This document shows, piece after piece, positions 35,707-53,404 of a stretch of 64,000 nt of DNA (positions within the stretch are counted from its first letter, which is position 1; every line of letters begins with the position of its first letter). A program made the translations under genes and the position numbers. This DNA comes from Prauserella cavernicola (GTDB lineage: Bacteria > Actinomycetota > Actinomycetes > Mycobacteriales > Pseudonocardiaceae). The stretch lies in assembly GCF_016595675.1 (NCBI RefSeq), contig NZ_JAENJH010000001.1:1-64000 (forward strand), written 5' to 3'. Under the pieces are notes generated by a model, which was not told the DNA's origin, did not search any database, and saw nothing but the letters and a program-made list of their open reading frames with translations.

Positions 35707-35731
35707 GTGCCGACGTGAGGGAGGCGAGGAC

Positions 35732-36619
35732 GTGCAGACCGGAAGGACGGCACCGGCCGTACACCCGTCGAACGAGGCCGAGCGCGTGCGCAGGGCCCGG
35801 CGCAACGCGGGTGATCCCACCCTCGAGTTCGGCCGCGTGCCCTACGACGACTACGTGCACGCGAGCACCCTGCACGGGTTGCAGCGGACGCTGTCCGACG
35901 ACGCGGGCGAGATGTCGTTCCTCGTCATCAGCCAGGTGATGGAGCTCTACTTCGGGCTGATCCATTTCGAGTTCACCCAGCTCCAGCAGCGGCTGCGAGC
36001 CGACGACGTGTGGGGCGCGCTCGCGCCCGCGCGCAGAGCCGCTCTGCACCTGGAGGGACTCACCGCGGGCTGGCGCACGTTGAGCTGGATGACGCCTGCC
36101 GACTTCAACCGCTTCCGCAACCTGCTCGGTGAGGGCTCCGGGTTCCAGTCCGCGATGTACCGGCACCTGGAGTTCCGGCTCGGCCTCAAGAGCGCGCCGC
36201 TGATCCGGCCCTTCCGCCGCCAGCCCGAGGTGCACGCCGCGCTCACGGCCACGCTCGAGGAGCCGAGCGTGTGGGACGACGTGCTCGCGCTGCTCGCCAG
36301 GCACGGCCACGACCTGCCGGCCGAGGTCCTGGACCGCGACCGCACCACCGAGCACGAGCCGCATCCCGCGGTGGAGGCCACGTGGGTGCGCGTCTATCGC
36401 GACGCAGGGCCCGCGAACCTGCTGCGCCAGCTCGGCGAGCTGCTCACCGAGATCGCCGAGAAGTTCGGCGACTGGAGATACCACCATCTGCGGGCCGTGG
36501 CGCGCACTATGGGAGCCAAGGTGGGTACTGGCGGGTCCACCGGGCTCTCGTGGCTGCGGCGCAGCATGGACCGGCCGGTGTTCCCCGAGCTGTTCTCCGC
36601 CCGCACGCTGATGGACTGA
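35732..36619 (+). CDS. kynA: Tryptophan 2,3-dioxygenase
   Basis: 295 residues from the GTG at 35732 (purine-rich GAGGCGAGGA upstream). DYVHASTLHGLQ, SFLVISQVMELYFGLIHFEF, DFNRFRNLLGEGSGFQSAMYR and the haem-binding His region WRYHHLRAVARTMG with KVGTGGSTGLSWL are the conserved TDO blocks. The haem enzyme opens the indole ring of tryptophan with O2 to N-formylkynurenine. First gene of a seven-gene rightward operon that carries tryptophan to 2-aminomuconate and beyond. No formamidase for the next reaction is encoded here. Confidence 0.96.
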   Translation: MQTGRTAPAVHPSNEAERVRRARRNAGDPTLEFGRVPYDDYVHASTLHGLQRTLSDDAGEMSFLVISQVMELYFGLIHFEFTQLQQRLRADDVWGALAPARRAALHLEGLTAGWRTLSWMTPADFNRFRNLLGEGSGFQSAMYRHLEFRLGLKSAPLIRPFRRQPEVHAALTATLEEPSVWDDVLALLARHGHDLPAEVLDRDRTTEHEPHPAVEATWVRVYRDAGPANLLRQLGELLTEIAEKFGDWRYHHLRAVARTMGAKVGTGGSTGLSWLRRSMDRPVFPELFSARTLMD

Positions 36620-36625
36620 GGCCTG

Positions 36626-37891
36626 ATGACGACGACGCTCGACCGCACGGAGGCCGCCGCCCTGCGCCGCGACGAGGCCGACCCGGGGCACCGGGACCGG
36701 TTCCTCGTGCCGCCCGCAGAGGGCGGCGACTACGCCGAGTCCGCTTACCTGGCGGGCAACTCGCTGGGCCTGCAGCCGGCCGCGACGCGTGCGGAACTGC
36801 TGGAGGACCTCGACGACTGGGCGCGGCTCGGCGTGGAAGGTCATCTCGAGGCGCGCAGGCCGTGGCTGCCCTACCACGCGCTGCTCACGGAGTCGGCCGC
36901 GCGACTGGTCGGGGCGCTGCCCGCCGAGACCGTGGTGATGAACTCGCTGACGGTCGACCTGCACCTGCTGATGGTGTCGTTCTACCGGCCGCGCGGGCGG
37001 CGCACGCGCATCGTCATCGAGGACGCGGCGTTTCCCTCCGACAGCTACGCGGTGCGCAGCCAGGCCCGCTTCCACGGGCTCGACCCCGACACGACGGTGG
37101 TGCGCCCCGGGTCGGGGGAGGAGGTGCTCGACCTGCTCGCCCGCGAGGGCGACACGATCGCGCTCGTGCTGCTCGGTGGCGTCAACTACCTGACCGGCGA
37201 GCTGTACGACATCCCCGCGATCACCGCGGCGGGCCGGGCCGCCGGGGCTGTGGTGGGCTGGGACCTGGCACACGCGGCGGGCAACGTGGAGCTGCGGATG
37301 CACGAGTGGGGCGCCGACTTCGCGGCGTGGTGCTCGTACAAGTACCTCAACGCGGGACCCGGCGCGCCCGCGGGCGTCTTCGTGCACGAACGGCATCTCG
37401 GCGACCGCTCGCTGCCGCGGTTCGAGGGCTGGTGGAGCACCGAGGAGGCCACGCGGTTCGAGATGGCGCCGGTGTCGCGCCCGCCCGCGACGGCCGAGGC
37501 GTGGCAGGTGTCGAACCCGCCGATCCTCGCGCTGGGCCCTGTGCGCACGTCGCTGAGCCTGTTCGACGAGGTCGGCATGCCCGCGCTGCGCGCCCGCAGC
37601 GAGCGGCTCACCGGCTATCTCGCCGAGCTGCTCGGTGCCGTCACCGCGACCCACCCGCTCACGCTGCTCACCCCTCGGGAGCCGCATCGCCGCGGCGCGC
37701 AGCTGTCGCTGCGGGTGGAACGCGGCGGAGCTGACGCACTGTCCCGCAGGCTCCGGCTGGAGTTCGGGGTGGTCACCGACGCGCGTGAACCCGACGTCGT
37801 GCGGCTGGCGCCTGCGCCGCTGTACTCGACCCACCACGACTGCTGGCGCGCCGCCGACGCGCTGGCCCGGCTCGCCGGGGAGGAGTCATGA
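36626..37891 (+). CDS. kynU: Kynureninase
   Basis: 421 residues, six bases after kynA. YLAGNSLGLQP opens the PLP fold, VIEDAAFPSDSYAV and GWDLAHAAGNVEL precede the PLP lysine in WCSYKYLNAGPGAP, and FEGWWST follows. Cleaves 3-hydroxykynurenine to 3-hydroxyanthranilate and alanine (or kynurenine to anthranilate). With the monooxygenase next door, the 3-hydroxy route is intended. Its TGA overlaps the monooxygenase ATG. Confidence 0.96.
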   Translation: MTTTLDRTEAAALRRDEADPGHRDRFLVPPAEGGDYAESAYLAGNSLGLQPAATRAELLEDLDDWARLGVEGHLEARRPWLPYHALLTESAARLVGALPAETVVMNSLTVDLHLLMVSFYRPRGRRTRIVIEDAAFPSDSYAVRSQARFHGLDPDTTVVRPGSGEEVLDLLAREGDTIALVLLGGVNYLTGELYDIPAITAAGRAAGAVVGWDLAHAAGNVELRMHEWGADFAAWCSYKYLNAGPGAPAGVFVHERHLGDRSLPRFEGWWSTEEATRFEMAPVSRPPATAEAWQVSNPPILALGPVRTSLSLFDEVGMPALRARSERLTGYLAELLGAVTATHPLTLLTPREPHRRGAQLSLRVERGGADALSRRLRLEFGVVTDAREPDVVRLAPAPLYSTHHDCWRAADALARLAGEES

Positions 37892-39240
37892 ACTCGCGCG
37901 GAGACAGTGGGGCAGACGTCGCGATCGTCGGCGCCGGGCTCACCGGCTGCCTGCTCGCCTGCTATCTCGCCCGGCGTGGCGAGCGGGTGCGGCTCTTCGA
38001 GCGCCGCGCCGACCCTCGGCTCACGGGCGCCGAGCGCGGGCGCTCGATCAACCTCGCGCTGTCGGAACGCGGGCTCGACGCGTTGCGGCGCATCGGACTC
38101 GAGCACGCGGTGCTCGCCGACGCGCTGCCGATGCGGGGCCGGATGATCCACCCGGCGGGTGACCCCGACGGCGAGCTCGACTTCCAGCCCTACAGCGCCG
38201 ACGGCGAGCGCGCGATCAACTCGATCAGCCGGGGCGCGCTCAACAACGCGCTGCTCGACGCCGCGCAGGCACTGCCCGAGGTGGAGGTGTTCTTCGAGCA
38301 CCGCCTCGACCGGTTCGACCCCGCCACCGGCGCGCTGTGTTTCGACACGCCGACGGGTCCGGTGCGCCCCGAGGCCGCCGTGGTGCTCGGCGCCGACGGC
38401 GCGGGCTCGGCGGTGCGGGGCGAGCTGCTGCGCCACGACGCCACCACCGAGACGCTCGACTTCCTCGACTACGGCTACAAGGAGCTCACCATCCCGGCCG
38501 TCGGCGGCGAGTTCGCGCTCGATCCCGGCGCACTGCACATCTGGCCCCGGGGCCGCTCGATGATGATCGCGTTGCCCAACCCCGACCGCTCGTTCACGTG
38601 CACGCTGTTCTGGCCGACCAGCGGCACCGCGTCGTTCGCCTCGCTCAGCAGTCCCGCCGCGGTGCAGCGCTACTTCGCCGAGCAGTACCCCGACGTGGTG
38701 CCGCTGGTGCCGGACCTCGTGACCGAGTACCGCGAGAACCCCGTGGGGCTGCTCGGCACCGTGCAGTGCGCGCCGTGGCAGACCGGCGGCCGGGTGTGCC
38801 TGCTCGGCGACGCCGCCCACGCGATCGTGCCGTTCTACGGTCAGGGCGCCAACTGCGCGTTCGAGGACGTGGTGGTGCTCGACGCCTGCCTCGACCGTAC
38901 GGGTGGCGACTGGAGCGCGGCGCTGCCGCTGTTCGACGCCGAACGCCGCGCCGACACCGAGGCGATCGCGCAGATGGCGCTGGCCAACTTCGTGGAGATG
39001 CGCGACAAGGTCGCCTCACCCGCGTTCAAGCTGGGCAAGCGCGTGGAGCACGCGCTCGAACGGGCGCTGCCGGGCCGCTACGTCTCGCGCTACGAGCTCG
39101 TGTCCTTCTCGACCACGCCGTACTCGGCGGTGCGCCGCCGCGTGCGGCTCCAGCACCGGTTGCTCGGCGCGGGCGCCGCGGGCGTACTCGGCCTGCTCGG
39201 CACCGTCGGCGCACTGACGACGCGATGGAGGCGGTCATGA
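37888..39240 (+). CDS. kmo: Kynurenine 3-monooxygenase
   Basis: 450 residues. FAD-binding IVGAGLTGCLLACYLARRG, RSINLALSERGLDALRRIG and the second FAD motif VCLLGDAAHAIVPFYGQGANC are characteristic of KMO. A C-terminal hydrophobic segment (LLGAGAAGVLGLLGTVGAL) resembles the membrane anchor of eukaryotic KMO, which is less usual in bacteria. Hydroxylates kynurenine with NADPH and O2. ATG overlaps kynU stop; its own stop overlaps the dehydrogenase ATG, so all are translationally coupled. Confidence 0.95.
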   Translation: MNSRGDSGADVAIVGAGLTGCLLACYLARRGERVRLFERRADPRLTGAERGRSINLALSERGLDALRRIGLEHAVLADALPMRGRMIHPAGDPDGELDFQPYSADGERAINSISRGALNNALLDAAQALPEVEVFFEHRLDRFDPATGALCFDTPTGPVRPEAAVVLGADGAGSAVRGELLRHDATTETLDFLDYGYKELTIPAVGGEFALDPGALHIWPRGRSMMIALPNPDRSFTCTLFWPTSGTASFASLSSPAAVQRYFAEQYPDVVPLVPDLVTEYRENPVGLLGTVQCAPWQTGGRVCLLGDAAHAIVPFYGQGANCAFEDVVVLDACLDRTGGDWSAALPLFDAERRADTEAIAQMALANFVEMRDKVASPAFKLGKRVEHALERALPGRYVSRYELVSFSTTPYSAVRRRVRLQHRLLGAGAAGVLGLLGTVGALTTRWRRS

Positions 39241-40712
39241 GCGAGCTGCTGCGGCACTTCGTCGGTGGGGAGTTCACCGCCTCCGCCAAGGAGTTCCCGA
39301 AGATCAGCCCGGTCACCGGCGAGCCGCTGTGCCAGGTCGCCGAGGCCGGTGAGTCCGATGTGGACGACGCGGTGCGGGCGGCTCGGGAGGCGCTACGAGG
39401 GCCGTGGGGGCGCACCACCGAGCTGGAGCGGGCGGCCGTGCTGCGCCGCATCGCCGACGAAGCCGAGCGCCGCTTCGACGACCTGGTGGCCGCTGAGGTC
39501 GCCGACACCGGCAAACCCGTCGGCCAGGCCCGCACGCTGGACGTGCCGAGGGCGGCGGCCAACTTCCGCGCGTTCGCCGACATCGTCAGCGCCGCGCCGG
39601 GGGAGTCGTTCCTTACGGGCACCGCGGGTGGAGGCCGGGCGCTCAACTACGCGGTGCGCAAACCCGTCGGCGTGGTGGCCGTGATCGTGCCGTGGAACCT
39701 GCCGCTGCTGTTGCTGACGTGGAAGGTCGCGCCCGCGCTGGCATGTGGCAACGCCGTGGTGGTCAAACCGTCGGAGGAGACGCCGTCGTCGGCCACGCTG
39801 CTGGCCGAGATCGTGCGCGACGCCGGACTGCCGCCGGGCGTGTTCAACGTCGTGCACGGCTACGGTCCCGGCTCGGCGGGCGAGCACCTCGTCCGCCACC
39901 CCGGGGTCGACGCGATCACGTTCACCGGGGAGTCGGCCACCGGTGCGACCATCGGCAGGGAGGCGGCGGCCGGGGTGAAGGCCGTGTCGTTCGAGCTGGG
40001 CGGCAAGAACGCCGGCCTCGTGTTCGCCGACGCCGATCTGGACGCCGCGGTGGCGGGCACGGTGCGCTCGGCGTTCACCAACGGCGGGCAGGTGTGCCTG
40101 TGCACCGAGCGCGTCTACGTGCAGCGGCCGGTGTTCGAGGAGTTCACCGAGCGGCTCGCCGCGCACGCGCGGGACGTGGCGTTCGGCTGGCCGTCCGATC
40201 CCGGGCTCACCACGATGCCGCTGATCTCGCGCGCCCACCGCGACAAAGTGCTCGGTCACTACGACCTGGCCCGCGCCGAGGGCGCGCAGGTGCACGCGGG
40301 CGGCGACGTGCCCGAGTTCGGCGACGCCCGCGACGGCGGCGCCTACGTGCGCCCGACCGTGCTCACCGGGCTGGGCCCGGACGCCAGGACCAACCGCGAG
40401 GAGATCTTCGGCCCGGTGTGTCACGTCGCGCCGTTCGACGACGAGGACGACGCCTACGCGCTGGCCAACGACAGCGACTACGGCCTCGCCGCGGCGGTCT
40501 GGACCCGCGACGTCGGCAGGGCCCACCGCGCCGGATCGGCGCTCGACGTCGGACTGGTGTGGGTCAACACGTGGTTCCTACGCGACCTGCGCAGCCCGTT
40601 CGGCGGCACCAAGGCTTCCGGTATCGGCCGCGAGGGCGGCGTGCACTCGCTGGACTTCTACTCCGAGACCACCAACGTCTGCGTCGACCTCGGCGGAAAG
40701 GGGACTCCATGA
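39237..40712 (+). CDS. nbaE: 2-aminomuconate 6-semialdehyde dehydrogenase
   Basis: 491 residues from the ATG at 39237; GGAGG (39227-39231) lies five bases upstream. An aldehyde dehydrogenase with [20 protein letters not shown], catalytic Glu in [12 protein letters not shown] and catalytic Cys in [12 protein letters not shown]. The C-x-C-T sequence and the genomic setting fit the hydroxymuconate/aminomuconate semialdehyde branch. Oxidises 2-aminomuconate semialdehyde to 2-aminomuconate with NAD, diverting flux away from quinolinate and picolinate. It overlaps the deaminase gene by four bases. Confidence 0.92.
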
Positions 40713-41140
40713 GCGGCGACGGTGCGCGCACGGTCGCGGGCAAGGCGCGGCCTCGCGGGCGGTTCCCGCACGTGAAGGTGGCGGGCGGGTTCGCGTTCGT
40801 CTCCGGTACGAGCAGCCGCAGGCCCGACAACACCATCGCGGGCGCCGAGTCAGACGAGCTGGGCACCACCGCGCTCGACATCCGTGAGCAGACCCGCTCG
40901 GTGCTGGAGAACGTGCGCGACGTCCTCGCCGAGGTGGGCGCCGGGCTGGAGGACCTCGTGTCCGTCACGACGTATCTGGTGTCGATGAACGACTTCGGCG
41001 GCTACAACGCCGTGTACGGCGAGTTCTTCGACGAGCAGGGCCCCGCCAGGACCACGGTCGCGGTGCACCAGCTGCCGCATCCGCACCTGCTGATCGAGAT
41101 GTCCGCGGTGGCCGCACTGCCGCGATCCGCAACGGAGTAG
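40709..41140 (+). CDS. nbaF: 2-aminomuconate deaminase (RidA family)
   Basis: 143 residues. [61 protein letters not shown] and [20 protein letters not shown] give the full YjgF/RidA fold, in the slightly longer form used by aminomuconate deaminases. It would hydrolyse 2-aminomuconate to 4-oxalocrotonate and ammonia. Function inferred from the operon; RidA proteins more generally deaminate enamines and imines. Confidence 0.87.
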
Positions 41141-41149
41141 GAGGACGAC

Positions 41150-41683
41150 ATGACCGACACCACCGGCATCACCGCTCCCATTCACTTTCCCGGCTGGCTC
41201 GATCAGAACCGGTCGCTGCTCAAGCCGCCGGTCGGCAACAAGCAAATGTTTCCCACCGGGCAGGACTTCATCGTGATGGTCGTGGGCGGGCCCAACTCGC
41301 GCACCGACTTCCACGTCGACCCCTACGAGGAGTTCTTCTACCAGGTCACGGGCAACATGCGCGTCGACATCGTCACCGAGAACGGGGTGGAGCCCGTGCA
41401 CATCGGTGAGGGACAGATGTGGGTGCTGCCCGCGAACGTGCCGCACTCCCCGCAGCGCCCCGAACCCGGCTCCATCGGCGTGGTGATCGAGCGCATCCGC
41501 GAGGAGGGCACGCTCGAGAAGTTCCAGTGGTACTGCCCGAACTGCTCGGCGCTCGTGCACGAGGTGGAGCTGCAGGTGCGCGACATCGTCGCCGACCTGC
41601 CGCCGGTGTTCGAGGCGTTCTACACCGACGAGCAGGCGCGGGTGTGCCGCGAGTGCGGCACGAAGCACCCGGGCAAGGGATGA
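41150..41683 (+). CDS. nbaC: 3-hydroxyanthranilate 3,4-dioxygenase
   Basis: 177 residues; GGAGGACGAC precedes the ATG. The cupin iron site is in RTDFHVDPYEEFFYQ (His, Glu) and LPANVPHSPQRPEPGSIG (His). The bacterial-type C-terminal rubredoxin-like second metal site is present: YCPNCSA and VCRECGTKHPG give four cysteines. Ring-opens 3-hydroxyanthranilate to 2-amino-3-carboxymuconate semialdehyde, the branch point to NAD (via quinolinate) or full degradation. It overlaps the decarboxylase gene by four bases. Confidence 0.96.
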   Translation: MTDTTGITAPIHFPGWLDQNRSLLKPPVGNKQMFPTGQDFIVMVVGGPNSRTDFHVDPYEEFFYQVTGNMRVDIVTENGVEPVHIGEGQMWVLPANVPHSPQRPEPGSIGVVIERIREEGTLEKFQWYCPNCSALVHEVELQVRDIVADLPPVFEAFYTDEQARVCRECGTKHPGKG

Positions 41684-42684
41684 CGCCCGCGCCCGTCGTC
41701 GACGTCCACACCCATCTGGTGCCGCGCGGCTGGCCGGATCTGGCCGCCGCGTGCGGGGGTGAGGGCTGGCCGTGGCTGCGTCTCGACTCCGAACGCGAGG
41801 CGATGATCATGGTGGGGGAGCAGGAGTTCCGCCCCGTCGGCGCGCAGTGCTGGGACCCCGCGACCCGGCTCGCCGACATGGCCGCCGACGCCGTCGACGT
41901 CCAGGTGGTGTCGCCGACGCCGGTGTTCTTCGGCTACGAGCGGCCCGCCGCGCAGGCGGCAGCGATGGCGCGGATCTTCAACGACCTCACGCTGGAGTGC
42001 GTGGCGGACGCCCCCCGGCTCGTGCCGTTCTGCCAGGTTCCGTTGCAGGACCCCGACGCCGCGTGCGCCGAGCTCGACCGCTGCCTGGCCGCGGGGCACG
42101 CCGGGGTCGAGATCGGCAACCACGTGGGCGAACGCGATCTCGACGACGAGGGCGTGGTGACGTTCCTGCAGCACTGCGCGCACGTCGGCGCGCCCGTGTT
42201 CGTGCACCCGTGGGACATGCCGGACGGCCCGCGGCTGGACCGGTGGATGGCGCGCTGGCTCACCGGCATGCCTGCCGAGACGCACCTGTCGGTGCTGGCG
42301 CTGATCCTGGGCGGCGTGTTCGACCGGGTACCCGAGACGCTGCGGCTGTGTTTCGCTCACGGCGCCGGCAGTTTCCCGTTCTGGCTCGGCCGCGCCGACA
42401 ACGCCTGGCACCGTCGTGGGGACCTGGTGCGCGGGCGCTCGGAACGGCCGCCCAGCCACTACACCGACCGGTTCTATGCCGACTCCGTGGTGTTCGACCC
42501 GGCCGCGCTGCGGCTGCTGGTGGACGTGCTGGGCGAGGACCGCGTGATGGTGGGCAGCGACTACCCCTACCCGCTGGGGGAGCGGCCCGTGGGCGAGGTG
42601 GTGCGCCGAGCGGAGTTCCTCACCGCTGCCCAGCGCGCCAAGATCCTCTCCGGCAACGCACTGCGGTTCCTCGGCCAGGAGTGA
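41680..42684 (+). CDS. nbaD: 2-amino-3-carboxymuconate 6-semialdehyde decarboxylase
   Basis: 334 residues from the ATG at 41680. An amidohydrolase TIM barrel with zinc ligands in VDVHTHLVP (His, His), PVFVHPWDMP (His), LCFAHGAGSF and the late Asp in VGSDYPYPLG; the FFGYERPAAQAAAMARIFND stretch is typical of ACMSD. Removes the carboxylate before spontaneous cyclisation to quinolinate can occur, committing tryptophan to catabolism. Last gene of the operon; later enzymes (oxalocrotonate decarboxylase onward) are not in the window. Confidence 0.95.
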   Translation: MTPAPVVDVHTHLVPRGWPDLAAACGGEGWPWLRLDSEREAMIMVGEQEFRPVGAQCWDPATRLADMAADAVDVQVVSPTPVFFGYERPAAQAAAMARIFNDLTLECVADAPRLVPFCQVPLQDPDAACAELDRCLAAGHAGVEIGNHVGERDLDDEGVVTFLQHCAHVGAPVFVHPWDMPDGPRLDRWMARWLTGMPAETHLSVLALILGGVFDRVPETLRLCFAHGAGSFPFWLGRADNAWHRRGDLVRGRSERPPSHYTDRFYADSVVFDPAALRLLVDVLGEDRVMVGSDYPYPLGERPVGEVVRRAEFLTAAQRAKILSGNALRFLGQE

Positions 42685-44622: not shown

Positions 44623-45575
44623 GCAACCTCGATGTCCGCCCCGAGGAGACGCCGTGCCGGGGCAGGGACGAGGGTGGCGCGGTGACCGAGCTGCTGGAGG
44701 CACGGACGGTGCCGCTCGGCGGGGTGCGCGGCATCCAGGTCGACCGGGTGCTGCCCCAGCGCGCGTTGCCGACCGTCGGCGCGTGGTGCTTCCTCGACCA
44801 GTTCGGGCCGGCGCGGTCGGACATGCGCGTGCTGCCGCACCCGCACATCGGGCTGCAGACCGTCACGTGGCCGCTCGCGGGGGAGATCCGGCACCGCGAC
44901 AGTCTCGGCAGCGACGTGGTGGTGCGGCCGGGCCAGCTCAACCTGATGACCGGCGGGCGCGGCGTGGCGCACTCGGAGTTCTCGCTCGGCGACGAGCCCG
45001 AGCTGCACGGTCTGCAGCTGTGGGTCGCGCTGCCCGAGCAGAGCACCGGAGTCGAGCCCGCGTTCGAGCAGCACGTCGCGTTGCCCCGGTTCGAGGCGGA
45101 CGGGCTGAGCGCGACCGTGCTGGTGGGCTCGCTCGGTGACGCGGTGTCGCCCGCGACGGTGTACACGCCGCTGGTGGGCGCCGAGCTGACGGTGGGGCCG
45201 GGTGCGCGCACGAAGCTGCCGCTGCGAAGGGACTTCGAGTACGCGCTGCTCGTGGTGGACGGTGACGTGACCGTGGCGGGAGTGCCGCTGTCGCCGGGTC
45301 CGCTGCTGTACCTCGGCACGGGTCGCGACGAACTGGAGATCGCGGCGTCGGCCGGCGCCCGCGCACTGCTGCTCGGCGGCGAGCCGTTCCCGGACGAGCT
45401 CGTGATGTGGTGGAACTTCGTGGGCCGCAGCCACGAGGAGATCGCCGAGGCACGTGCCGCGTGGGAGGCCCACGACGAGTCCCGCTTCGGCCGGGTCGAC
45501 GGCCACGGCGACGCCCGCATCCCGGCCCCGGACCTCCCGGGCGTCCGGCTGACCCCCCGCCGCCGCCCCCACTAG
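44619..45575 (+). CDS. Pirin family protein
   Basis: 318 residues, ATG overlapping the acetyltransferase stop. The N-terminal cupin has VGAWCFLDQFGPA, the iron ligands in LPHPHIGLQTVTWPLAG and MTGGRGVAHSEFS; the C-terminal cupin ends with LGGEPFPDELVMWWNFVGRS, all standard for pirins. Bacterial pirins act as quercetinases or metabolic regulators. Its stop codon is followed after 19 bases by a 21-bp repeat array. Confidence 0.93.
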   Translation: MSNLDVRPEETPCRGRDEGGAVTELLEARTVPLGGVRGIQVDRVLPQRALPTVGAWCFLDQFGPARSDMRVLPHPHIGLQTVTWPLAGEIRHRDSLGSDVVVRPGQLNLMTGGRGVAHSEFSLGDEPELHGLQLWVALPEQSTGVEPAFEQHVALPRFEADGLSATVLVGSLGDAVSPATVYTPLVGAELTVGPGARTKLPLRRDFEYALLVVDGDVTVAGVPLSPGPLLYLGTGRDELEIAASAGARALLLGGEPFPDELVMWWNFVGRSHEEIAEARAAWEAHDESRFGRVDGHGDARIPAPDLPGVRLTPRRRPH

Positions 45576-45594
45576 CCAACCCGCGCCCCACCGC

Positions 45595-45741
45595 CGCGAG
45601 TCCCGCGCTCCGGCACGCGAGTCCCGCGCTCGGGCGCGCGAGTCCCACGTTCCGGCACGCGAGTCCCGCGCTCGGGACCGCGAGTCCCACGTTCCGGCAC
45701 GCGAGTCCCGCGCTCGGGACCGCGAGTTCCGCGCTCCGGGC
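45595..45741 (+). repeat. 21-bp tandem repeat array, forward, 7 units
   Basis: Units begin at 45595, 45616, 45637, 45658, 45679, 45700 and 45721, the same 21-base period and the same CGCGAGTCCCGCGCTC head as the array at 9761. It starts 20 bases after the pirin stop codon. The number of units equals that of the first array. Confidence 0.9.
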
Positions 45742-45779
45742 AACGAACTGTCCGGTCGCTCACGACGGGCCGTCACGCG

Positions 45780-45863
45780 CGAGTCGTGCGGCCCGGTGCG
45801 CGAGTCTTGCATTCGGGACCGCGAGTCGCGCAGTCCCGACCGCGAGTCCCGCGCCCGAGTGCA
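45780..45863 (+). repeat. 21-bp repeat array, forward, 4 further units
   Basis: CGCGAGT heads at 45780, 45801, 45822 and 45843, 38 bases after the end of the seven-unit array, followed by an inverted copy at 45868 (ACTCGCG). Bodies are more diverged than in the first array. From 45880 to 46187 I see only scattered degenerate GCGAG and ACTCGC words and no gene. Confidence 0.82.
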
Positions 45864-46187
45864 CGACTCGCGCACCGAGGCACCCTGGCGGAATGTCGCT
45901 GTCCAGCAGCCACGCGAGCCGCGGACGAGTGGCGACACGCGGGAGGCTCCCGGCGTCGCGAGGACTGCCCGCTCTCGTTCGTGAACGATCCGCCGGATTC
46001 TCCACTCGCGAATCCTGCTGTCGAGACCGGCAGCCGCGGATTCCGTGCCCGCCCCCACACCGGACTCACGAAGTTCCCCGTGGCGGCGCGGCCTTTCACC
46101 CTTGTTCGTCGTGATCCCGGCAGGGGACCCGCCCGCCGCTGTGCGTTCCCAGCCCGCCGTGAGGCCGTGACCAGACCGCAACGTCCA

Positions 46188-46333
46188 ACTCGCGCTGCTG
46201 AGCACATGACTCGCGATCTGCGCTGCGTGGTTCTCCACGCGAAAGCGCCATTCGGCGACTCGAGCGGGGAACTCGCTGGTCCTGGCGGGGGACTCGCGCT
46301 CCTGAGCGGGGGACTCGCGGATGGGCTGGAGCG
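46188..46333 (-). repeat. 21-bp repeat copies, inverted
   Basis: ACTCGC heads at 46188 and 46209, then at 46271, 46292 and 46313, each set spaced by 21 bases; bodies of the last three (GGGGG before each head) match the inverted array at 10006-10080. They close the 887-base gap between pirin and the unknown operon, again as inverted copies before the next gene. Confidence 0.8.
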
Positions 46334-46401
46334 TGCCGGGTTTCGGCTGTCGTGCGGTGAATGGACACGGACCTCTTGTGTGGGCGCGCGCGACGACATA
46401 G

Positions 46402-46440
46402 TGTCATGGAAAAGCGAACACTGTCAAGATATTTATGACA
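46402..46440. promoter_or_regulatory. TGTCA motifs upstream of the unknown operon
   Basis: TGTCA at 46402-46406 and 46422-46426 and the inverse TGACA at 46436-46440; the last two form a TGTCA-N9-TGACA dyad 22 bases before the first gene, in a locally AT-rich stretch (AGATATTTA). A plausible operator for the IclR protein of this operon; the -35 and -10 cannot be assigned with confidence. Confidence 0.5.
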
Positions 46441-46462: not shown

Positions 46463-48208
46463 ATGCGTACTGCTGGCAGACCCGCCGGTGCGGCCACTGT
46501 GGACGGGCTCGCGCTCCGCGACCCCGCGGAACTGATGGATCCGCGGCGACTGGCGGCCATGCAGCCGACCCGGCTCAGCGCGAGCCGGTCCCTGATCGAG
46601 AAGATGACCCGGGAGCGCTGGGCCATCGAACTGTCCACGATGGACGTCGGAGACGACGGCGACGGCGTCGCCGTGTACCGGGTGGACACGGGGCGGGATG
46701 TCTTCTCCTTCGCGGCCTTCAGCTCCGAACCGCGGATGGTCGACCGCACTCCGCGCATCATCGGCCAGAGCTGGGACATGGTCGGTGCGCTCTGGGAGGG
46801 AGAGGCCGACGCCGCACGCCTCGACCAGACCCGCAGGGAGCTACCGAAGCTCTACGCCGGCAGGGCCGCGCCGGGCACCCTCGTGTGGTGCCGCTCGAAC
46901 CGCAGCCTCCGCGCGTTCGACCACACCGTCAACGCCCTGGCCGACGGGCGCCAGCCGGATCCGGCTGTGCTGCGCGGTATCGGCTACCTCATGCGCAACA
47001 CCGGGCTCGACGCCAACGGTACGTTCGGCACCCGCACCTTTCTGTCGTACGGCGACCGGCACCCGCTGCGGGTGCCGTACCACGCCCAGATGCTCACGGC
47101 CTATCTCATGCGTGAGTTCAGTGCCGACCTGTGCGAACGGCTCGCCCGCGGCGCCTCGTCACGCGCCGTGCCGCTGGCGCCGGAGTACCGTCGCTACCTC
47201 GGGCTCGGCAACGGTTCCGCGCTGGGGCTCGTGCTCTTCGTCGCCAACCACCCCCGGCTGGTCGATCGCTGGCTGAGCCTGCGCGAACGGGCGCTGCTCG
47301 CCGCTCGCAGACTCGACCCGCCTCCCGGCGACGACCGTTACGCCACGTTGCTCGGCCTGCTGGACCGCGCCATCACCTACCGGCGTCAGGATCCGATGTC
47401 CTACAACGTCTTCCCCGCCAGCGCGCGGGTCGCCACCGAGCTGGAGACAGTGCGCGGGCTCGTGGCGAGGCTGCGTGACGGTGACCCGCTCGACGCGCCG
47501 GAACTGCCCGCGTTCGAACGGCTTCGACGTGCCGTCGCGGGCACCGTCACGGAGGAGACCGAGGAAACACTCGACGCGGTGTTGCTGGAGTTCGTACCGG
47601 ACGACTGTGCGCGCCTCACCGAGGAGCTGCTCGTGGACGAACAGCTCGTCCGGGAACCGGGCATGACCGTCGGTGAACTGCGCACCGTGCTCGACGAGGA
47701 CTACCGGTGGGCGCTGGAACTGCCCATCGCACCGGAGAGCGATCGCAGGCGCATCTGGTACAAGTCCCGTTCCTCCGAGGAACCGCGCTCGGGTCCCCGG
47801 GAGGAGGTACCCGGTGGGTTCGACCTCTCCGTGGACGTGCCGGGCCTCGCGCGTGGACTGCGAGCGCGGCTGGACACCTACGATCCCGGCGTCCGTGTCG
47901 GCAGGTTCCTCTTCGACAATCCCGGTCATCTCGCCGCCGTGGAACGGTTCCAGGCGCTGCGCGGGAATCCGTACGCCCAGCCCTATGTGGACGCTCTGGA
48001 CGTGGAGTTCGTGCCAGCCAGGCTGATCCGGCTCATGAACGGAGCACTGTACGGATTGGACCGCACGAAGGACTACCTCAACCGGACCCTGCGCGGGCTG
48101 ATCTTCCAGGGCGCCCCCACGCGCGAGGACATCGCGGCGGGGGAGCCCGGCGTGTGGTGGTGGCCGGAGGAGCCGGGTTCCACGGAAACAGAAGGGGGAC
48201 TGGCGTGA
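46463..48208 (+). CDS. Uncharacterised 581-residue protein heading an IclR/DUF3726/M19/ABC operon
   Basis: I do not recognise a named domain. The protein is soluble-looking, with no signal peptide or membrane segment, and is rich in Arg and Asp. Blocks that look conserved are MVGALWEGEADAARLDQTR, GTLVWCRSNRSLRAFDH, GIGYLMRNTGLDANGTFGTR, HAQMLTAYLMREFSADL and RRYLGLGNGSALGLVLFVAN in the N-terminal half, and VDALDVEFVPARLIRLMNGALYG near the end. I recall similar unannotated proteins beside DUF3726 genes in proteobacteria, but cannot verify it. The stop overlaps the IclR GTG, so it is translationally coupled to the rest of the operon. Confidence 0.85.
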   Translation: MRTAGRPAGAATVDGLALRDPAELMDPRRLAAMQPTRLSASRSLIEKMTRERWAIELSTMDVGDDGDGVAVYRVDTGRDVFSFAAFSSEPRMVDRTPRIIGQSWDMVGALWEGEADAARLDQTRRELPKLYAGRAAPGTLVWCRSNRSLRAFDHTVNALADGRQPDPAVLRGIGYLMRNTGLDANGTFGTRTFLSYGDRHPLRVPYHAQMLTAYLMREFSADLCERLARGASSRAVPLAPEYRRYLGLGNGSALGLVLFVANHPRLVDRWLSLRERALLAARRLDPPPGDDRYATLLGLLDRAITYRRQDPMSYNVFPASARVATELETVRGLVARLRDGDPLDAPELPAFERLRRAVAGTVTEETEETLDAVLLEFVPDDCARLTEELLVDEQLVREPGMTVGELRTVLDEDYRWALELPIAPESDRRRIWYKSRSSEEPRSGPREEVPGGFDLSVDVPGLARGLRARLDTYDPGVRVGRFLFDNPGHLAAVERFQALRGNPYAQPYVDALDVEFVPARLIRLMNGALYGLDRTKDYLNRTLRGLIFQGAPTREDIAAGEPGVWWWPEEPGSTETEGGLA

Positions 48209-48951
48209 GTGAGGACGGCAAGCGGCGCACGCAGCCGTTGTCCACGACTCTGAAGAGCCTCGGCGTGCTGGAGACGGTCGCGCAGGCGCAGCGTTCGGTC
48301 CGGGTGTCCGAGCTGGCCCGCGAGCTCGGGTGGTCGCGGGCGGCGGTGCACCAGCAGCTGGTGACGCTCACCGCGGCGGGCTGGATGGAGCAGGCCGAGG
48401 ACGGTGCCTACCGGCTCACCCTGCGTGCCGCGTGGGTCGGCCAGTCGGCGCTGAGGCAGGCCGGACTCGGCGACCGCGTACTGCCCGCCATGGAACGGCT
48501 CGTCGAGGAGATCCGGGAGGCGGTCTCGCTCGCGATCCTCGAACGTGACACCGCCACGATCATCCAGCGCCTCGAACCCGGCCGCACCCTGCAGGTCGAC
48601 CTCCGGGCCGAGGCGCAGATGCCGCTGGGCCGCAGCGCGTCGGGCAAGGTGCTGATGGCCTGGGCCAACGAGCGCAGCCTTGACGACCTGCGAGCCCGCG
48701 GTGTCGAGGTACCGGACGCCGACGACCTGGCCGCCATCCGCGAGGCCGGTTACGCCACGTCCAGCGGTCGCTGGCTCGATGGCGTCACCGGTATCGCCGC
48801 TCCCGTGTTCGACGTGCACGGCGGCTGCGTCGGCGCGCTCAGCCTCGCCGGGCCAGCGAGCAGACTCGACGTCGACAAGGCCACCACTGCCCTGTTGCGC
48901 CGGGCCGAGGAGGTCAACGAGGTGTTGTCCGGGAAGGGCGGGGCGCGATGA
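48205..48951 (+). CDS. IclR family transcriptional regulator
   Basis: 248 residues from the GTG at 48205, overlapping the upstream stop. LKSLGVLETVAQAQRSVRVSELARELG and SRAAVHQQLVTLTAAGWME are the winged HTH; the effector domain has MPLGRSASGKVLMAW and GVTGIAAPVFDVHGGCVGALS. It is embedded within the operon rather than divergent from it, so it is likely an autogenous pathway regulator acting at the promoter near 46400. Its stop overlaps the next gene (ATGA). Confidence 0.9.
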   Translation: MSEDGKRRTQPLSTTLKSLGVLETVAQAQRSVRVSELARELGWSRAAVHQQLVTLTAAGWMEQAEDGAYRLTLRAAWVGQSALRQAGLGDRVLPAMERLVEEIREAVSLAILERDTATIIQRLEPGRTLQVDLRAEAQMPLGRSASGKVLMAWANERSLDDLRARGVEVPDADDLAAIREAGYATSSGRWLDGVTGIAAPVFDVHGGCVGALSLAGPASRLDVDKATTALLRRAEEVNEVLSGKGGAR

Positions 48952-49619
48952 GCGGCGACGAGATGCGGCTGAGCCTGCGTGAGACCCGGCTGGTCACCGA
49001 GCGGATCGTGATGTTGCTCGGCGTGCCCAAGGGAAGCTGGGCCGCGGTGCGCGAGGTCGTGGTGGCGGCCGAGGCGGCCGGTCTGGGTGGACTGGCGTTT
49101 CTCGACCGCTGCCCGGCCGATGCCTGGGACAAGCCCACGATCACCGGGGAGTCCGGGCCCCGGATCACGGTGGCCGCCCAGGACGTCCCCGCGCCGTTCG
49201 CGGTGCCCGCGCTGCTGGATCTCGCGATCGCGACCGCGACCGAACACGGCGAGGCCGAGATCCGGGTGAGCGGTCTGACCGAGGCGGGCCTGCTGCCCGC
49301 CGTGAGCTCGCTCGCCGCCCGGTTCGGCGCCGAGGTGAACGTGGAGACCGAGGCTGGCCTGCACGTCCTGCGAGCACGACCGAAGGAGACCGCGGAAGGC
49401 TCGCGCGCCGCGATGGCGGGCGGCGCGCACCTGCTCGACGCGGCGCTGCACGGCATCGTCGTGTCCGCCGAGCTGTGGTGGCGGCTGTACCACCGCTCCA
49501 ACGACGCGCTGACCGTCGACACCCCGTTGTCGCGCAACCACGCGGGGGCGGCGCTGCTCAGTGGCGACGCGGGCCTCACCGAGACCGATCCCGACTACGT
49601 GGCCGAAGCCGCGTCCTGA
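48948..49619 (+). CDS. DUF3726-like protein
   Basis: 223 residues. The start MRLSLRETRLVTERIVMLLG followed by WAAVREVVVAAEAAGLGGLAFLDRC resembles the DUF3726 pattern (SLNE-type start, then a helix rich in Ala with WGLAEEAG-like spacing). The middle has ITVAAQDVPAPFAVPALLDLA and the C-terminal half GGAHLLDAALHGIVVSAELWW. No catalytic motif is evident. The family has no known function; the coupling to the M19 and ABC genes implies a shared substrate. Family assignment is tentative. Confidence 0.72.
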   Translation: MSGDEMRLSLRETRLVTERIVMLLGVPKGSWAAVREVVVAAEAAGLGGLAFLDRCPADAWDKPTITGESGPRITVAAQDVPAPFAVPALLDLAIATATEHGEAEIRVSGLTEAGLLPAVSSLAARFGAEVNVETEAGLHVLRARPKETAEGSRAAMAGGAHLLDAALHGIVVSAELWWRLYHRSNDALTVDTPLSRNHAGAALLSGDAGLTETDPDYVAEAAS

Positions 49620-49635
49620 CCTACAGGAGAACCAA

Positions 49636-50631
49636 GTGCACTACGTCGACGGACTCGAATGCAGTGAGTTCGACCGTGAGGTGTTCACCGAGTTGCGCGA
49701 GGGCGGGCTCACCTGCGTCACCGTGACGTGCGGTTACTGGGGTGACGCGCTGGAGTCGATGGACTCGCTCGCCGCCTGGCGTGACCTGGCACGGGACAAC
49801 GAGGACCTCATCGGGATCGCGCGCACCGCCGCGGACATCGAGCGGATCGCGGCGGAGGGCAGGACCGCGATCCTGCTCGGGTTCCAGAACAGCGCGTTCC
49901 TCGCGGGCCGGATCCGGTTCGTGGAGCTCTTCGCCGACCTCGGCGTGCGGGTGGCGCAGCTGACCTACAACATCCAGAACGACATCGGCGCCAGCTGCTA
50001 CGACGACCCCGACAGCGGTCTGACGCGCTTCGGCCGCGAGGTGGTCGCCGAGATGAACCGCGTCGGCATGGCGGTGGACCTCTCTCACGTCGGCGATCGC
50101 ACGAGCATCGAGGCCATTGAGCACTCCACCGCGCCGGTCGCGATCACGCACGCCAACGCGGCCTCGCTCGTGCCTCACCGGCGCAACAAGTCCGACGAGG
50201 TCCTGAAAGGACTCGCCGCGCGGGGCGGCGTGCTCGGCGTCTCGGGGTACCGCAACATCTCCGGCCCCTACGCCGAGAGCATCGACGCGTGGGCCGAAAT
50301 GGTCGCCAGGACCGTCGACCTCATCGGTGTCGACCACGTCGGCATCGGTACCGACCTGGGCCGCAAGGTCACCTTCGAGCACCTGCAGTGGATGCGTCAG
50401 GGCCGTTGGAGCGCCCGGCCGCAGTACGGAGCCGGTTCCGCCAGCAATCCGGGCAAGCAGCCGCCGCTGCCGTGGTTCCCGGACACCCGGGCCTTCCCGG
50501 CCAAGGAGGAGGCCCTGCGGCGGTACGGGTTCGACGAGCAGTCGGTCGCCGCCGTGATGGGCGGCAACTGGCTGAGGTTCTACGCCGACGTGCTGCCGCA
50601 GAGCAGCGACCAGCCGAGCCGAGAGGAGTAG
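49636..50631 (+). CDS. Non-canonical M19 (membrane dipeptidase-like) protein
   Basis: 331 residues from the GTG at 49636; AGGAGA (49625-49630) is five bases upstream. The fold is that of renal-dipeptidase-type amidohydrolases: LTYNIQNDIGASCYDDPDSG, GLTRFGREVVAEMNRVGMAVDLSH and VDHVGIGTDLG. However, the N-terminal HxD metal pair is replaced by DGLEC (residues 5-9), and the bridging Glu position reads LGFQNS (81-86). Only the later His residues (DLSH151, ITH172) remain. I recall the same pattern in the M19 homologue of the Pseudomonas glycine-betaine/dimethylglycine region. It may therefore have lost peptidase activity or evolved another reaction. Confidence 0.87.
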   Translation: MHYVDGLECSEFDREVFTELREGGLTCVTVTCGYWGDALESMDSLAAWRDLARDNEDLIGIARTAADIERIAAEGRTAILLGFQNSAFLAGRIRFVELFADLGVRVAQLTYNIQNDIGASCYDDPDSGLTRFGREVVAEMNRVGMAVDLSHVGDRTSIEAIEHSTAPVAITHANAASLVPHRRNKSDEVLKGLAARGGVLGVSGYRNISGPYAESIDAWAEMVARTVDLIGVDHVGIGTDLGRKVTFEHLQWMRQGRWSARPQYGAGSASNPGKQPPLPWFPDTRAFPAKEEALRRYGFDEQSVAAVMGGNWLRFYADVLPQSSDQPSREE

Positions 50632-50634
50632 CCG

Positions 50635-51465
50635 ATGGCCACCCGAACACTGGCGGACGCGCGCTCGCGCGCAACCGCCGAGCCATCCGCCATCACGGCG
50701 CGCGCCGTGTCCAAGACGTTCCAGGGAAAGGGCAAGGTCGTCCATGCCCTGTCCGATGTGGACCTCACCGTCGAGGCCGGTCAGTTCGTCTCCCTGATCG
50801 GACCGAGCGGGTGTGGCAAGTCGACGCTGCTCAAGATGATCGCCGGCCTGCTCGCGCCCTCCGCGGGCACGGTCGCGATCGACGGCACCACGGTGACCGA
50901 GCCACTGCCACAGATCGGGATCGCGTTCCAGAAGCCGACCCTGCTGCGCTGGCGCAGCGTGCTCGACAACATCTGTCTCCCGCTCGACCTCGACGGCGGC
51001 AGGGGAGCCGACGGTGAGGCGCGGGCCGTCGAGCTGCTCGCCATGATGGGCCTGGCCGGGTTCGAGAAGCACCATCCGAAGGAGCTCTCCGGCGGCATGG
51101 AGCAGCGCGTGGCCATCGCGCGCTCGCTCATCGCGCAGCCCTCGCTGTTGCTCATGGACGAACCGTTCGGAGCGCTCGACGAGTTCACCCGCGAGGACCT
51201 GAACGACGAACTGCTGCGCGTGTGGCAGCACGAGCCGAAGACCGTGGTGTTCGTGACCCACAGCATCTCGGAGGCGGTGTTCCTGTCCGACCGGGTCGTG
51301 GTGATGAGCGCCCGGCCAGGCCGGATCCACGCCGACATCGAGGTCGACCTGCCGCGTCCGCGCGAGCGCGCGTTGCGCAACACACCCGAGTTCTACGAGG
51401 CGATCCGGCACGCGCGTGCCGTGCTCGACGAGGCGCGGCTCGGCGAGCGGGGAGGGCAGCGGTGA
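50635..51465 (+). CDS. ABC transporter ATP-binding protein (nitrate/sulfonate/taurine type)
   Basis: 276 residues. Walker A GPSGCGKST, Q-loop IAFQKPTLLRWRSVLDNI, signature LSGGMEQRVAIARSL, Walker B LLLMDEPFGALDEFTRE and switch His in FVTHSISEAVFLSDRV. The lengths and the VLDNI and SISEAVFL phrasing place it with the NitT/TauT importers of small sulfonates, pyrimidine precursors and similar compounds. It powers the permease encoded next. The stop overlaps the permease ATG. Confidence 0.95.
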   Translation: MATRTLADARSRATAEPSAITARAVSKTFQGKGKVVHALSDVDLTVEAGQFVSLIGPSGCGKSTLLKMIAGLLAPSAGTVAIDGTTVTEPLPQIGIAFQKPTLLRWRSVLDNICLPLDLDGGRGADGEARAVELLAMMGLAGFEKHHPKELSGGMEQRVAIARSLIAQPSLLLMDEPFGALDEFTREDLNDELLRVWQHEPKTVVFVTHSISEAVFLSDRVVVMSARPGRIHADIEVDLPRPRERALRNTPEFYEAIRHARAVLDEARLGERGGQR

Positions 51466-52280
51466 TGGCGACCAAGCTCGCTCCGTCCGTGGCCGACGAG
51501 ACCGCCACCCCACCTCGCCCGCGCGGCGGCAGCGCCGGGATGAAGTCGGCGGTACTCGCCGTGCTGATCTTCGTCGCGATCATCACCGGCTGGCACGTGC
51601 TCGCGACCTCCGGGGCCGTGTCACCGCTGTTGCTCGCCCCGCCCGGTGACGTCCTGGCCGCACTCGGGCAGATGGTGTCCGACGGAACGTTGTGGCCGCA
51701 CCTGTCGGCGACGGTGCAGGAAACCGTCTTCGGGTTCCTGCTCGCCGTGGTCGCCGCACTCGTCATGGGTTCGGCCTTCGCGTTCTCGCCCATCCTGCGC
51801 AACGCCGTCTACCCCTACATTCTTGTGTCGCAGACGTTCCCGAAGGTCGCGATCGCCCCGCTGATCGTGGCGATCTTTGGCTACGACCTCGCTCCGAAGG
51901 TGGTGCTCGCGGCGCTGCTGGCGTTCTTCCCGGTGCTCACCAACACCATCGCCGGGCTCACCGAGGTCAGCGACGACGAGGTGAACCTCTTCCGGTCCCT
52001 GCGGGCGAGCAAGTGGCAAGAGCTTCGTTACCTGCGCATTCCCAACGCGCTCGCGTTCATCTTCCCCGCTCTCAACAGCGCGGCGGTGCTCGCGCTCATC
52101 GGTGCGATCGTGGGCGAATTCGTGGCCTCGCGCACGGGAATCGGCTACGCCATCCAGCAGTTCACGACCACTGGTGAGGTGGCCGCCACCTACGCGGCGC
52201 TGATCGTTCTGTCGATCTTCGGCCTGACCATCTACGGAGTCCTGACCCTGACCGAGCGGCTCGTGCGCCGCAACCGCTGA
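51465..52280 (+). CDS. ABC transporter permease (NitT/TauT type)
   Basis: 271 residues from the ATG at 51465 (GGAGGG at 51451-51456). About six membrane segments beginning AVLAVLIFVAIITGWHVLA; the EAA-like loop for ATPase docking is in EVNLFRSLRASKWQELRYLRIPNALAFI. It builds the translocation channel, probably as a homodimer, for the substrate delivered by the lipoprotein encoded next. Confidence 0.94.
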   Translation: MATKLAPSVADETATPPRPRGGSAGMKSAVLAVLIFVAIITGWHVLATSGAVSPLLLAPPGDVLAALGQMVSDGTLWPHLSATVQETVFGFLLAVVAALVMGSAFAFSPILRNAVYPYILVSQTFPKVAIAPLIVAIFGYDLAPKVVLAALLAFFPVLTNTIAGLTEVSDDEVNLFRSLRASKWQELRYLRIPNALAFIFPALNSAAVLALIGAIVGEFVASRTGIGYAIQQFTTTGEVAATYAALIVLSIFGLTIYGVLTLTERLVRRNR

Positions 52281-52306
52281 TCCGTCCCCGTCCCCGAGGA
52301 GAACCC

Positions 52307-53404
52307 ATGACCATCACCACCCCGCGCAGGCGGTTGCTCGGCGCTGCCGCGGCCGTGCTCACGGCCGCCACGGTCGCAGGCTGCGGCGCCTCCAGCGAGT
52401 CGGCGGGAGGCGGCGTGATCTTCGCCGTCGCTGACAAGTCGCTGACGGCCACCACGGCGTCCTACACGTCGGTGCCGCTGCGGGCAGGGTATTTCGCCGA
52501 CGAGGAGCTCGACGTCACCATCCAGCCGGTCGACACCGCACTGTCGGCGGTGCAGTCGGTGGCCACCGGCCAGTCGTTCATGACGTACGCGTCGGTGAAC
52601 GCGGTCATCTCGGCGGCGGGACAGGACGACGGGCTCGCGGTGGTGGGCTTCACCAACGGCAACATCTTCCGCATCGCCGTGCCGGAGGACAGTCCGATCA
52701 GGACGGTCGAGGACCTCAAGGGCAAGACCATCGGGTCGAGCACGCTCGCCTCGATCAGCAATCTCTACGGCAAGGGAGTGCTCGCGCAGGCGGGGCTGGA
52801 TCCCGAGGCCGACGCCGAGTACCTGCCCGTCGGTTACGGCGCGCAGGCGGCGGAGGCGATCCGTACCGACCAGGTGCAGGCCTACGTGGGCTACGACGGG
52901 CCGAACGTCGTGATCGGCGACCTGCTCGGCACCGAGCTGCGGCCGTTGGACACGCCGCTCAACGAGCTCACCGGAACCTCGGCGCTCGTCGTGCGCAAGG
53001 AGAGCATCGAGAACGAGCCCGAACGCGTCACCGGCATGGTGCGGGCGTTCTTCAAGGCGATGGTGTTCTCCCAGGAGAACCCGGAGGCCGCGATCCAGCT
53101 GCACTGGGAGGAGTTCCCGCAGTCCAAGCCCGCCGCCACCGACGAGCAGGTGGCACGCGAGCAGGCCGTGGAGATCCTGACCCGCAGGCTCGACGTCACC
53201 GGTGGGCCGGGCCCCTCGGGTGAGTACGGCGTGCAGGACGACTCCGCGATGCAGACCACGGTCGACGAGCTCGCCCGCTACGAGATGGTGGACCAGCCGG
53301 TGGACCTGGACGCGAGCGGACTCGTGGACTACAGCCTGGCCGAGCGCTACAACGACTTCGACGTCGAGGCCATCAAGCAGGAGGCCCTGAACTGGAAGGG
53401 CTGA
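52307..53404 (+). CDS. ABC transporter substrate-binding lipoprotein (NMT1/THI5-like)
   Basis: 365 residues. Lipobox TVAGC with lipidated Cys26 after a signal that also begins with three arginines (TPRRRLLGAAAA). The mature protein has AGYFADEELDVTIQPVDTALSAV, a SSTLASISNLYGKGVLAQAGLD hinge region and VQAYVGYDGPNVVIGDLLG, as in NMT1/THI5-like binding proteins for sulfonates, pyrimidines and aromatic amines. It captures the operon's unknown substrate outside the membrane. The operon ends here at a strong hairpin. Confidence 0.92.
   Translation: MTITTPRRRLLGAAAAVLTAATVAGCGASSESAGGGVIFAVADKSLTATTASYTSVPLRAGYFADEELDVTIQPVDTALSAVQSVATGQSFMTYASVNAVISAAGQDDGLAVVGFTNGNIFRIAVPEDSPIRTVEDLKGKTIGSSTLASISNLYGKGVLAQAGLDPEADAEYLPVGYGAQAAEAIRTDQVQAYVGYDGPNVVIGDLLGTELRPLDTPLNELTGTSALVVRKESIENEPERVTGMVRAFFKAMVFSQENPEAAIQLHWEEFPQSKPAATDEQVAREQAVEILTRRLDVTGGPGPSGEYGVQDDSAMQTTVDELARYEMVDQPVDLDASGLVDYSLAERYNDFDVEAIKQEALNWKG

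Follow-up and report, generated by a model that had tools for sequence, protein, structure and literature searches.

Dipeptidases of the M19 family hold a binuclear zinc site bridged by a glutamate and carry an N-terminal HxD motif. The trigonelline pathway of Acinetobacter baylyi, reportedly worked out by Perchat et al. in 2018, is said to convert an N-methylpyridine acid into a semialdehyde and methylamine by means of a flavin oxygenase pair. Here we analysed a seven-gene operon in a stretch of 64,000 nucleotides from Prauserella cavernicola (the window), which encodes a 581-residue protein (P0001), an IclR-family regulator, a DUF3726-like protein, an M19 homologue and the ATPase, permease and lipoprotein of an ABC importer. 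An earlier note, made from the sequence of the window, had compared the M19 gene with a homologue near dimethylglycine genes, and such a neighbourhood has indeed been reported: where PMC12093977 treats dgcAB, a predicted dipeptidase gene is placed directly before it in Vibrio natriegens, and in the same place in P. aeruginosa. In the window, the M19 gene has P0001 and the DUF3726-like gene as neighbours, not dgcAB. The operon also has no gene for a flavin oxygenase pair, while the semialdehyde and methylamine of the trigonelline pathway resemble the products proposed below. The AraC-type regulator TmaR is described in the relevant part of PMC13390433 as sitting beside mgdABCD, a linkage that persists in strains lacking the upstream TMA genes, and 2026 work cited there assigns Mgd a part in homarine (N-methylpicolinate) catabolism.

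The seven genes lie on the plus strand with coupled ends (table 1), and all reading frames, positions and junctions proposed in the earlier note were borne out. All of them evolve as coding sequences; in comparison with three relatives, third codon positions changed more often than first or second ones in every gene, by a factor of 1.9 to 21, and the DUF3726-like gene was the least constrained. The position of the P0001 start codon was supported by GGTTGGGTGGATGC, conserved in five genomes. The 44-base block directly 5' of P0001 was well kept in five genomes, and the second and third of its half-sites each had a one-base change in one of the five genomes compared. Because this block is conserved while the DNA farther upstream has diverged, it is likely to be the operator or promoter of the operon. 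The regulator matched HTH_IclR (40.4 bits) and IclR_C (83.7 bits) above the cut-offs; its top NCBIfam match, the PcaR/PcaU/PobR subfamily, was far under the cut-off. The identical gene order was found in eight genomes, namely the window species, P. flavalba (whose P0001 is the nearest named relative, at 89%), P. endophytica, genome G003, Tamaricihabitans, Streptosporangium, Murinocardiopsis and Thermocatellispora. Upstream of the operon (about 45400-46330), the window is GC-rich with recurring GACTCGCG-type units, and P. flavalba and P. endophytica show the same in their upstream DNA.

Table 1. Features of the operon and of the upstream kynurenine cluster (positions in the window).
Feature	Position	Strand	Remark
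Conserved upstream block, three TGTCA-type half-sites	46397..46440	+	Putative operator/promoter
TGTCA-type half-sites	46402-46406, 46422-46426, and inverted 46436-46440		
P0001, 581 aa, unnamed family	46463..48208	+	Overlaps IclR gene by 4 bases (GTG 48205, stop 48208)
IclR-family regulator	48205..48951	+	GTG start; overlaps next gene by 4 bases (48948/48951)
DUF3726-like protein, 223 aa, putative shortened type-2 malate/lactate dehydrogenase (Ldh_2) fold	48948..49619	+	Gap of 16 bases to M19 gene (GTG 49636)
M19 homologue	49636..50631	+	GTG start; gap of 3 bases to ATPase gene
ABC ATPase, NitT/TauT type	50635..51465	+	Overlaps permease gene by 1 base (TGATG, 51465)
ABC permease, NitT/TauT type	51465..52280	+	Gap of 26 bases to lipoprotein gene
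NMT1/SsuA-type substrate-binding lipoprotein	52307..53404	+	
Tryptophan 2,3-dioxygenase	in 35717-42684		Below cut-off
Kynureninase	36626-37891		
KMO-like FAD oxygenase	37888-39240		Our own reading
2-hydroxymuconic-semialdehyde-type aldehyde dehydrogenase	39237-40712		
RidA type	40709-41140		
3-hydroxyanthranilate dioxygenase	41150-41683		
Putative ACMS decarboxylase	41680-42684		Read by eye; no NCBIfam match

We hypothesized, with a probability of about 0.5, that the operon is a variant, specific to its lineage, of a widespread accessory catabolic module, in which P0001 and the DUF3726-like protein, as a two-part enzyme, and the M19 homologue act on an imported solute. We infer its substrate and reaction as follows. 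The IclR regulator would control the operon, as its family and the conserved upstream repeats suggest, and the importer, whose genes are present, would take up a small nitrogen-containing solute. P0001 and the DUF3726-like protein, almost always adjacent and sometimes in one frame, may form one two-part enzyme. Together with a non-dipeptidase M19 protein, this pair would open or cleave the imported molecule, which is probably an acid of betaine-like, N-methylated or N-heterocyclic type; the products would be a semialdehyde together with an imine, an N-methyl amino acid or an amine. An aldehyde dehydrogenase (ALDH), whose gene is linked in many relatives but may lie elsewhere in the genome of the window species, would oxidise the aldehyde. 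The imine would have two alternative fates, reduction by a DpkA-like Ldh_2 enzyme or hydrolysis by RidA.

The distribution of the three families was investigated in 84 loci (the window, L017-L063 and L104-L142, minus the near-duplicates L029 and L032 and minus L054), including 39 alphaproteobacterial regions from 37 of 57 positive genomes. Genes were counted by profile searches on six-frame translations, and a hand-made, error-prone gene caller served for orientation and importer contexts. Of the 84 loci, 81 had a DUF-type gene no more than 1.5 kb from P0001 (E up to 1e-10 in 64, up to 1e-5 in 12 and up to 1e-2 in 5; 3 loci gave no match), and 79 had a member of the M19 subfamily at a distance of at most 5 kb. 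P0001 and the DUF-type protein shared one open frame in 11 loci, ten of them actinobacterial (Brevibacterium, Leucobacter, Labedella, Galactobacter, Sediminivirga) and the other, L136, from the alphaproteobacterial sample, with a weakly scoring DUF part (E 2e-4). This near-constant adjacency and the single frame in some lineages argue for a two-part unit.

The 20 alphaproteobacterial regions with contig room for two controls each were also compared with 40 shifted regions of the same contigs, using a query panel chosen from P0001-type loci. The M19 subfamily occurred in 19 of the 20 P0001 regions and in none of the 40 controls. ALDH (10/20 vs 2/40), Ldh (9/20 vs 0/40), BCCT/ProX/ProW (7/20 vs 0/40) and Rieske genes (3/20 vs 0/40) followed, while Sox/Mgd-type and DMGDH-type genes (each 3/20 vs 2/40) were not significant. 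RidA was found in none of the 20 regions, so it characterises the actinobacterial and PotD-type loci and not these. N-demethylase neighbours, considered as a diagnostic mark, were dropped for want of significant enrichment over the controls. The earlier note had named an absence of co-occurrence elsewhere as the result that would speak against its proposal; this objection fails, because the families co-occur far beyond chance. The core of the module is P0001, DUF3726 and M19, and the importer is not part of it.

In actinobacteria the distribution of the operon is patchy, since P0001 relatives were found in 7 of 100 related genomes and in 7 of 396 sampled actinobacterial genomes (the window species included in both). 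With the Ruegeria protein as query, 57 of 387 alphaproteobacterial genomes gave relatives; five of these genomes measure 1.2-1.4 Mb, a size that suggests SAR11. Further relatives lie on plasmids of Sinorhizobium, Phaeobacter, Aminobacter, Neorhizobium, Microvirga, Variovorax, Pseudomonas and the haloarchaeon Natrinema. The Natrinema versiforme plasmid (L057, 15094-17624) carries P0001 with a 317-aa DUF3726/Ldh_2-like protein and a BCCT gene, and no M19 match was found in its 31 kb. One Sciscionella genome (G042) has two P0001 genes, on contigs C10 and C20 (L014, L015), 49% and 37% identical to that of the window; the match to the second contains a TAG.

As the earlier note had stated, P0001 has no recognisable domain: sequence searches of Pfam, NCBIfam and PDB gave no match, and 35 relatives gave only stray Pfam matches (E 0.013-0.039). 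The AlphaFold model, built from 35 alignment rows, was confident (pLDDT 88.4, pTM 0.90). Foldseek searches of PDB (best E 0.43) and of viral models (best E 0.22) gave no convincing match for it, and the predicted fold is new against these two structure sets. The family has 43 invariant columns in 35 divergent sequences, nine of them Arg.

The assignment of the 223-aa protein to DUF3726 holds in a qualified form. Alone, it gave no match to PF12525; a search of its own genome with this profile, in which no control gave a signal, was likewise empty, and only 1 of 25 relatives matched weakly (best E 0.068). A profile-profile comparison with clear DUF3726 proteins, however, gave 96% by hhalign (E 4.1e-9, 191 columns), and both groups have a similar C-terminal SR..GAG motif and the same place beside P0001. 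We regard it as a distant DUF3726 protein by sequence, a membership that follows from the profile-profile match and not from a Pfam match of its own. Its AlphaFold model matched type-2 malate/lactate dehydrogenases in Foldseek (best E 2.6e-6, prob 1.00), with TM 0.42-0.59 of the query over the 22 matches under E 0.001. It differs from Ldh_2 (PF02615) in its length (about 220 vs about 340 residues), in lacking SHG, the catalytic motif of these dehydrogenases, and in falling below the Pfam cut-offs. The DUF3726/Ldh_2-like protein of Natrinema reached 36.2 bits to PF02615, just below the cut-off of 38.8. Profile comparison with the Ldh proteins of the operons was weak, so the proposed kinship with Ldh_2 rests on the fold match and this one archaeal member. 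DUF3726 was mentioned in none of the papers searched.

The M19 homologue scored 237.4 bits to PF01244 (cut-off 26) and so belongs to the family by profile. The description of it as aberrant was also confirmed. Its Gln84 aligns to the Glu of 3id7, and Gln replaces the bridging Glu in all 77 aligned members of the subfamily (77 of the 84 loci; five had no M19 match and the rest were too short). Gln84, Asn85, His151, His172 and Asp240 are invariant, and some of the corresponding residues bind zinc in the human dipeptidase. At positions 4-9, the expected place of HxD, a His occurs in 0 of 77; this place was inferred from the conserved N-terminal D(G), and the Pfam and 3id7 alignments start later. 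With both the bridging Glu and HxD lost, the protein would not be a canonical binuclear dipeptidase. The nearest solved relative by sequence was 2i5g (E 9e-65, aligned over most of the length), which we take to be of the PA5396 type and which shares the fold family, the GFQN motif and the retained His and Asp residues. No paper dealing with the P0001/DUF3726/M19 module was found in a literature search on PA5396. In three related genomes (L124, L125, L127), a DMGDH-type flavin adenine dinucleotide (FAD) protein of about 800 aa adjoins the M19 gene.

The complete NitT/TauT-type importer of the earlier note was recovered, with ATPase, permease and NMT1-type lipoprotein as in SsuABC/TauABC. However, the cut-offs of the specific models are not reached, and other importers take its place in relatives. 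In a tree of P0001 made by a quick method from 83 of the 84 loci, the window fell in a six-row clade with the NitT/TauT importer (support 96). This clade is nested in a larger one of 30 rows (support 100), in which the remaining branches have MFS proteins nearest to aromatic-acid symporters, PotD-type ABC importers, a TTT binding protein or amino-acid-type ABC importers. The second large clade has BCCT and ProXWV importers, with MFS and amino-acid-type ABC importers in some actinobacteria. Importer class thus varies between subclades, and the importer that accompanies the core is particular to each lineage. Because importers change while the core stays, the NitT/TauT label tells little about the substrate. 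A quaternary or N-methylated amine, suggested in the earlier note, is plausible since many relatives have betaine-type importers (BCCT or ProXWV).

Accessory enzymes give a further view of the chemistry. An ALDH gene was found within 8 kb in 35 of the 84 loci (32 on the same strand), an Ldh_2 enzyme in 20 (17) and RidA in 13 (10). Ldh and RidA never occurred together (Ldh alone in 20, RidA alone in 13), as if the one reduced and the other hydrolysed the same imine. Many alphaproteobacterial loci contain LysR, ALDH, M19, BCCT or ProXWV, P0001, DUF3726 and Ldh. The ALDHs scanned from the second clade were nearest to 2,5-dioxovalerate/alpha-ketoglutaric semialdehyde dehydrogenase and those of the PotD-type loci L026 and L135 to succinate semialdehyde dehydrogenase, all under cut-off; that of L021 was generic and also under the cut-offs. 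The nearest solved sequence to Ldh was delta1-piperideine-2-carboxylate reductase (1wtj); enzymes of this family also form N-methyl amino acids. The common picture is of an aldehyde and an imine or enamine arising from a nitrogen-containing acid. The earlier claim that no classic catabolic enzyme is present holds for the operon of the window but not for L019 and L021, where an ALDH gene lies directly 3' of the lipoprotein gene. In Sinorhizobium meliloti R14 (pSymB, L053 23912-25379), an apparently frame-broken ALDH gene lies between an aminotransferase gene and RidA.

Several observations weigh against a catabolic module of this kind. P0001 could be non-catalytic, because none of its His or Cys residues is invariant in the 35 sequences (His200 comes close) and no cofactor domain was recognised in Pfam and NCBIfam scans. 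M19 is missing in 5 of the 84 loci (L057, L115, L137, L139, L142), and the DUF and M19 profiles were partly built from the loci that were counted. N-demethylase neighbours were not significantly enriched (4/20 vs 2/40, P 0.09). No ALDH gene lies in the operon of the window; the ALDH that entered the count for the window and for L017 comes from a kynurenine cluster, as does the RidA tallied for the window. The mutual exclusion of Ldh and RidA partly follows phylogeny, 3 of the 20 Ldh and 3 of the 13 RidA genes are on the other strand, and RidA of S. meliloti sits just beyond 8 kb. The best NCBIfam match of Ldh was sulfolactate dehydrogenase, under cut-off. Finally, our analysis turned up neither a ligand nor a reaction or phenotype for any member.

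Among more specific explanations, the module may be the core of homarine catabolism in the marine clade, with a related N-methylpyridine acid as substrate in the clade of the window, which we consider possible though improbable. P0001/DUF3726 would open or oxidise the ring, M19 would remove an N-acyl group, ALDH would oxidise a C5 semialdehyde and Ldh_2 would make N-methylglutamate for Mgd. Loci of Phaeobacter and Ruegeria TM1040 hold LysR, ALDH, M19, BCCT, P0001, DUF3726 and Ldh and adjoin a four-subunit sarcosine-oxidase-family operon with an AraC-type regulator; an AraC gene and an operon of this kind flank the P0001 operon in L060 and L061. Shinella has a like arrangement with ProXWV, and the C5-type ALDH and DpkA-like Ldh fit, as do the reported role of Mgd in homarine catabolism and the tmaR-mgd linkage kept without TMA genes (in the part of PMC13390433 that bears on them). 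A LysR regulator, several enzyme genes, a betaine-type importer and, in some loci, an Mgd-type neighbour are thus possible likenesses to the homarine operon with Mgd. Mgd-type neighbours were found in L059-L061, L105, L107, L109 and L111, but this Sox/Mgd-type linkage was not significantly enriched in the case-control comparison, and the neighbouring operon was resolved to the sarcosine oxidase family, within which sarcosine oxidase and Mgd are not told apart. The ALDHs of the window clade are also of other types (succinate semialdehyde dehydrogenase-like in L026 and L135), and the operon of the window differs from the homarine-type loci in its regulator and importer and in lacking ALDH and Ldh. 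These data suggest, without proof, that the marine branch is a homarine pathway. Among the papers searched, none mentioned homABCDER and, under trigonelline, none was listed that deals with the P0001/DUF3726/M19 module; a search with presumed S. meliloti locus tags gave one remark on a spermidine/putrescine transport gene and otherwise gabD4 matches.

Somewhat less probable still is that P0001 and DUF3726 form a complex that serves an enzyme, be it the M19 hydrolase or a different one, in assembly, cofactor delivery or sensing. The DUF3726-like proteins do resemble shortened Ldh_2 proteins without SHG, and P0001 has no recognised cofactor domain. A helper of M19 alone does not fit, however, because the five loci without M19 retain P0001 and its DUF-type neighbour, and the 43 invariant columns of P0001 also speak against such a role.

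The window contains, 4-11 kb upstream of the operon, a gene set leading from tryptophan to 3-hydroxyanthranilate (35717-42684), and P. flavalba and P. endophytica also have kyn genes upstream. The operon might then serve this pathway, for example via the by-products picolinate or quinolinate. This is very improbable, as the seven-gene operon occurs in G003 and Tamaricihabitans without any kyn gene at E 1e-15 in about 20 kb of upstream flank, and in the 17.7-kb loci of Streptosporangium, Murinocardiopsis and Thermocatellispora none was found except a 40-41% ALDH in two. Scavenging of dipeptides or oligopeptides with M19 as a dipeptidase, to which its family membership points, has hardly any likelihood given the loss of the bridging Glu and HxD throughout the subfamily and no peptide-type importer noticed in the gene contexts read. 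An operon for uptake of sulfonate/taurine or nitrate is just as doubtful: the best models are SaoA/NtrCD/TauB for the ATPase, SaoP/TauC for the permease and the SsuA family for the lipoprotein, but all are under curated cut-offs, no desulfonating enzyme lies in the operon, and the core is joined elsewhere to BCCT, ProU, PotD-type, amino-acid-type, MFS and TTT genes.

The widespread accessory catabolic module therefore remains our preferred reading. There is a real chance that the P0001/DUF3726 pair is a new enzyme class. More tentatively, this class would be a two-part enzyme of unseen fold for ring opening or C-N cleavage of betaine-like or pyridinium acids, spread over Alphaproteobacteria (including genomes of SAR11 size), rhizobia, actinobacteria and a haloarchaeon, with the window as a terrestrial branch with its own substrate. 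The P0001 family has no name, known domain or solved fold, yet it is present in 57 of the 387 sampled alphaproteobacterial genomes, and its partners are near-constant in the loci examined. The changing importers offer several independent routes to the compound through ligand screening. Naming the substrate would annotate three protein families together, and would indicate a compound consumed by soil, plant-associated and probably ocean bacteria.

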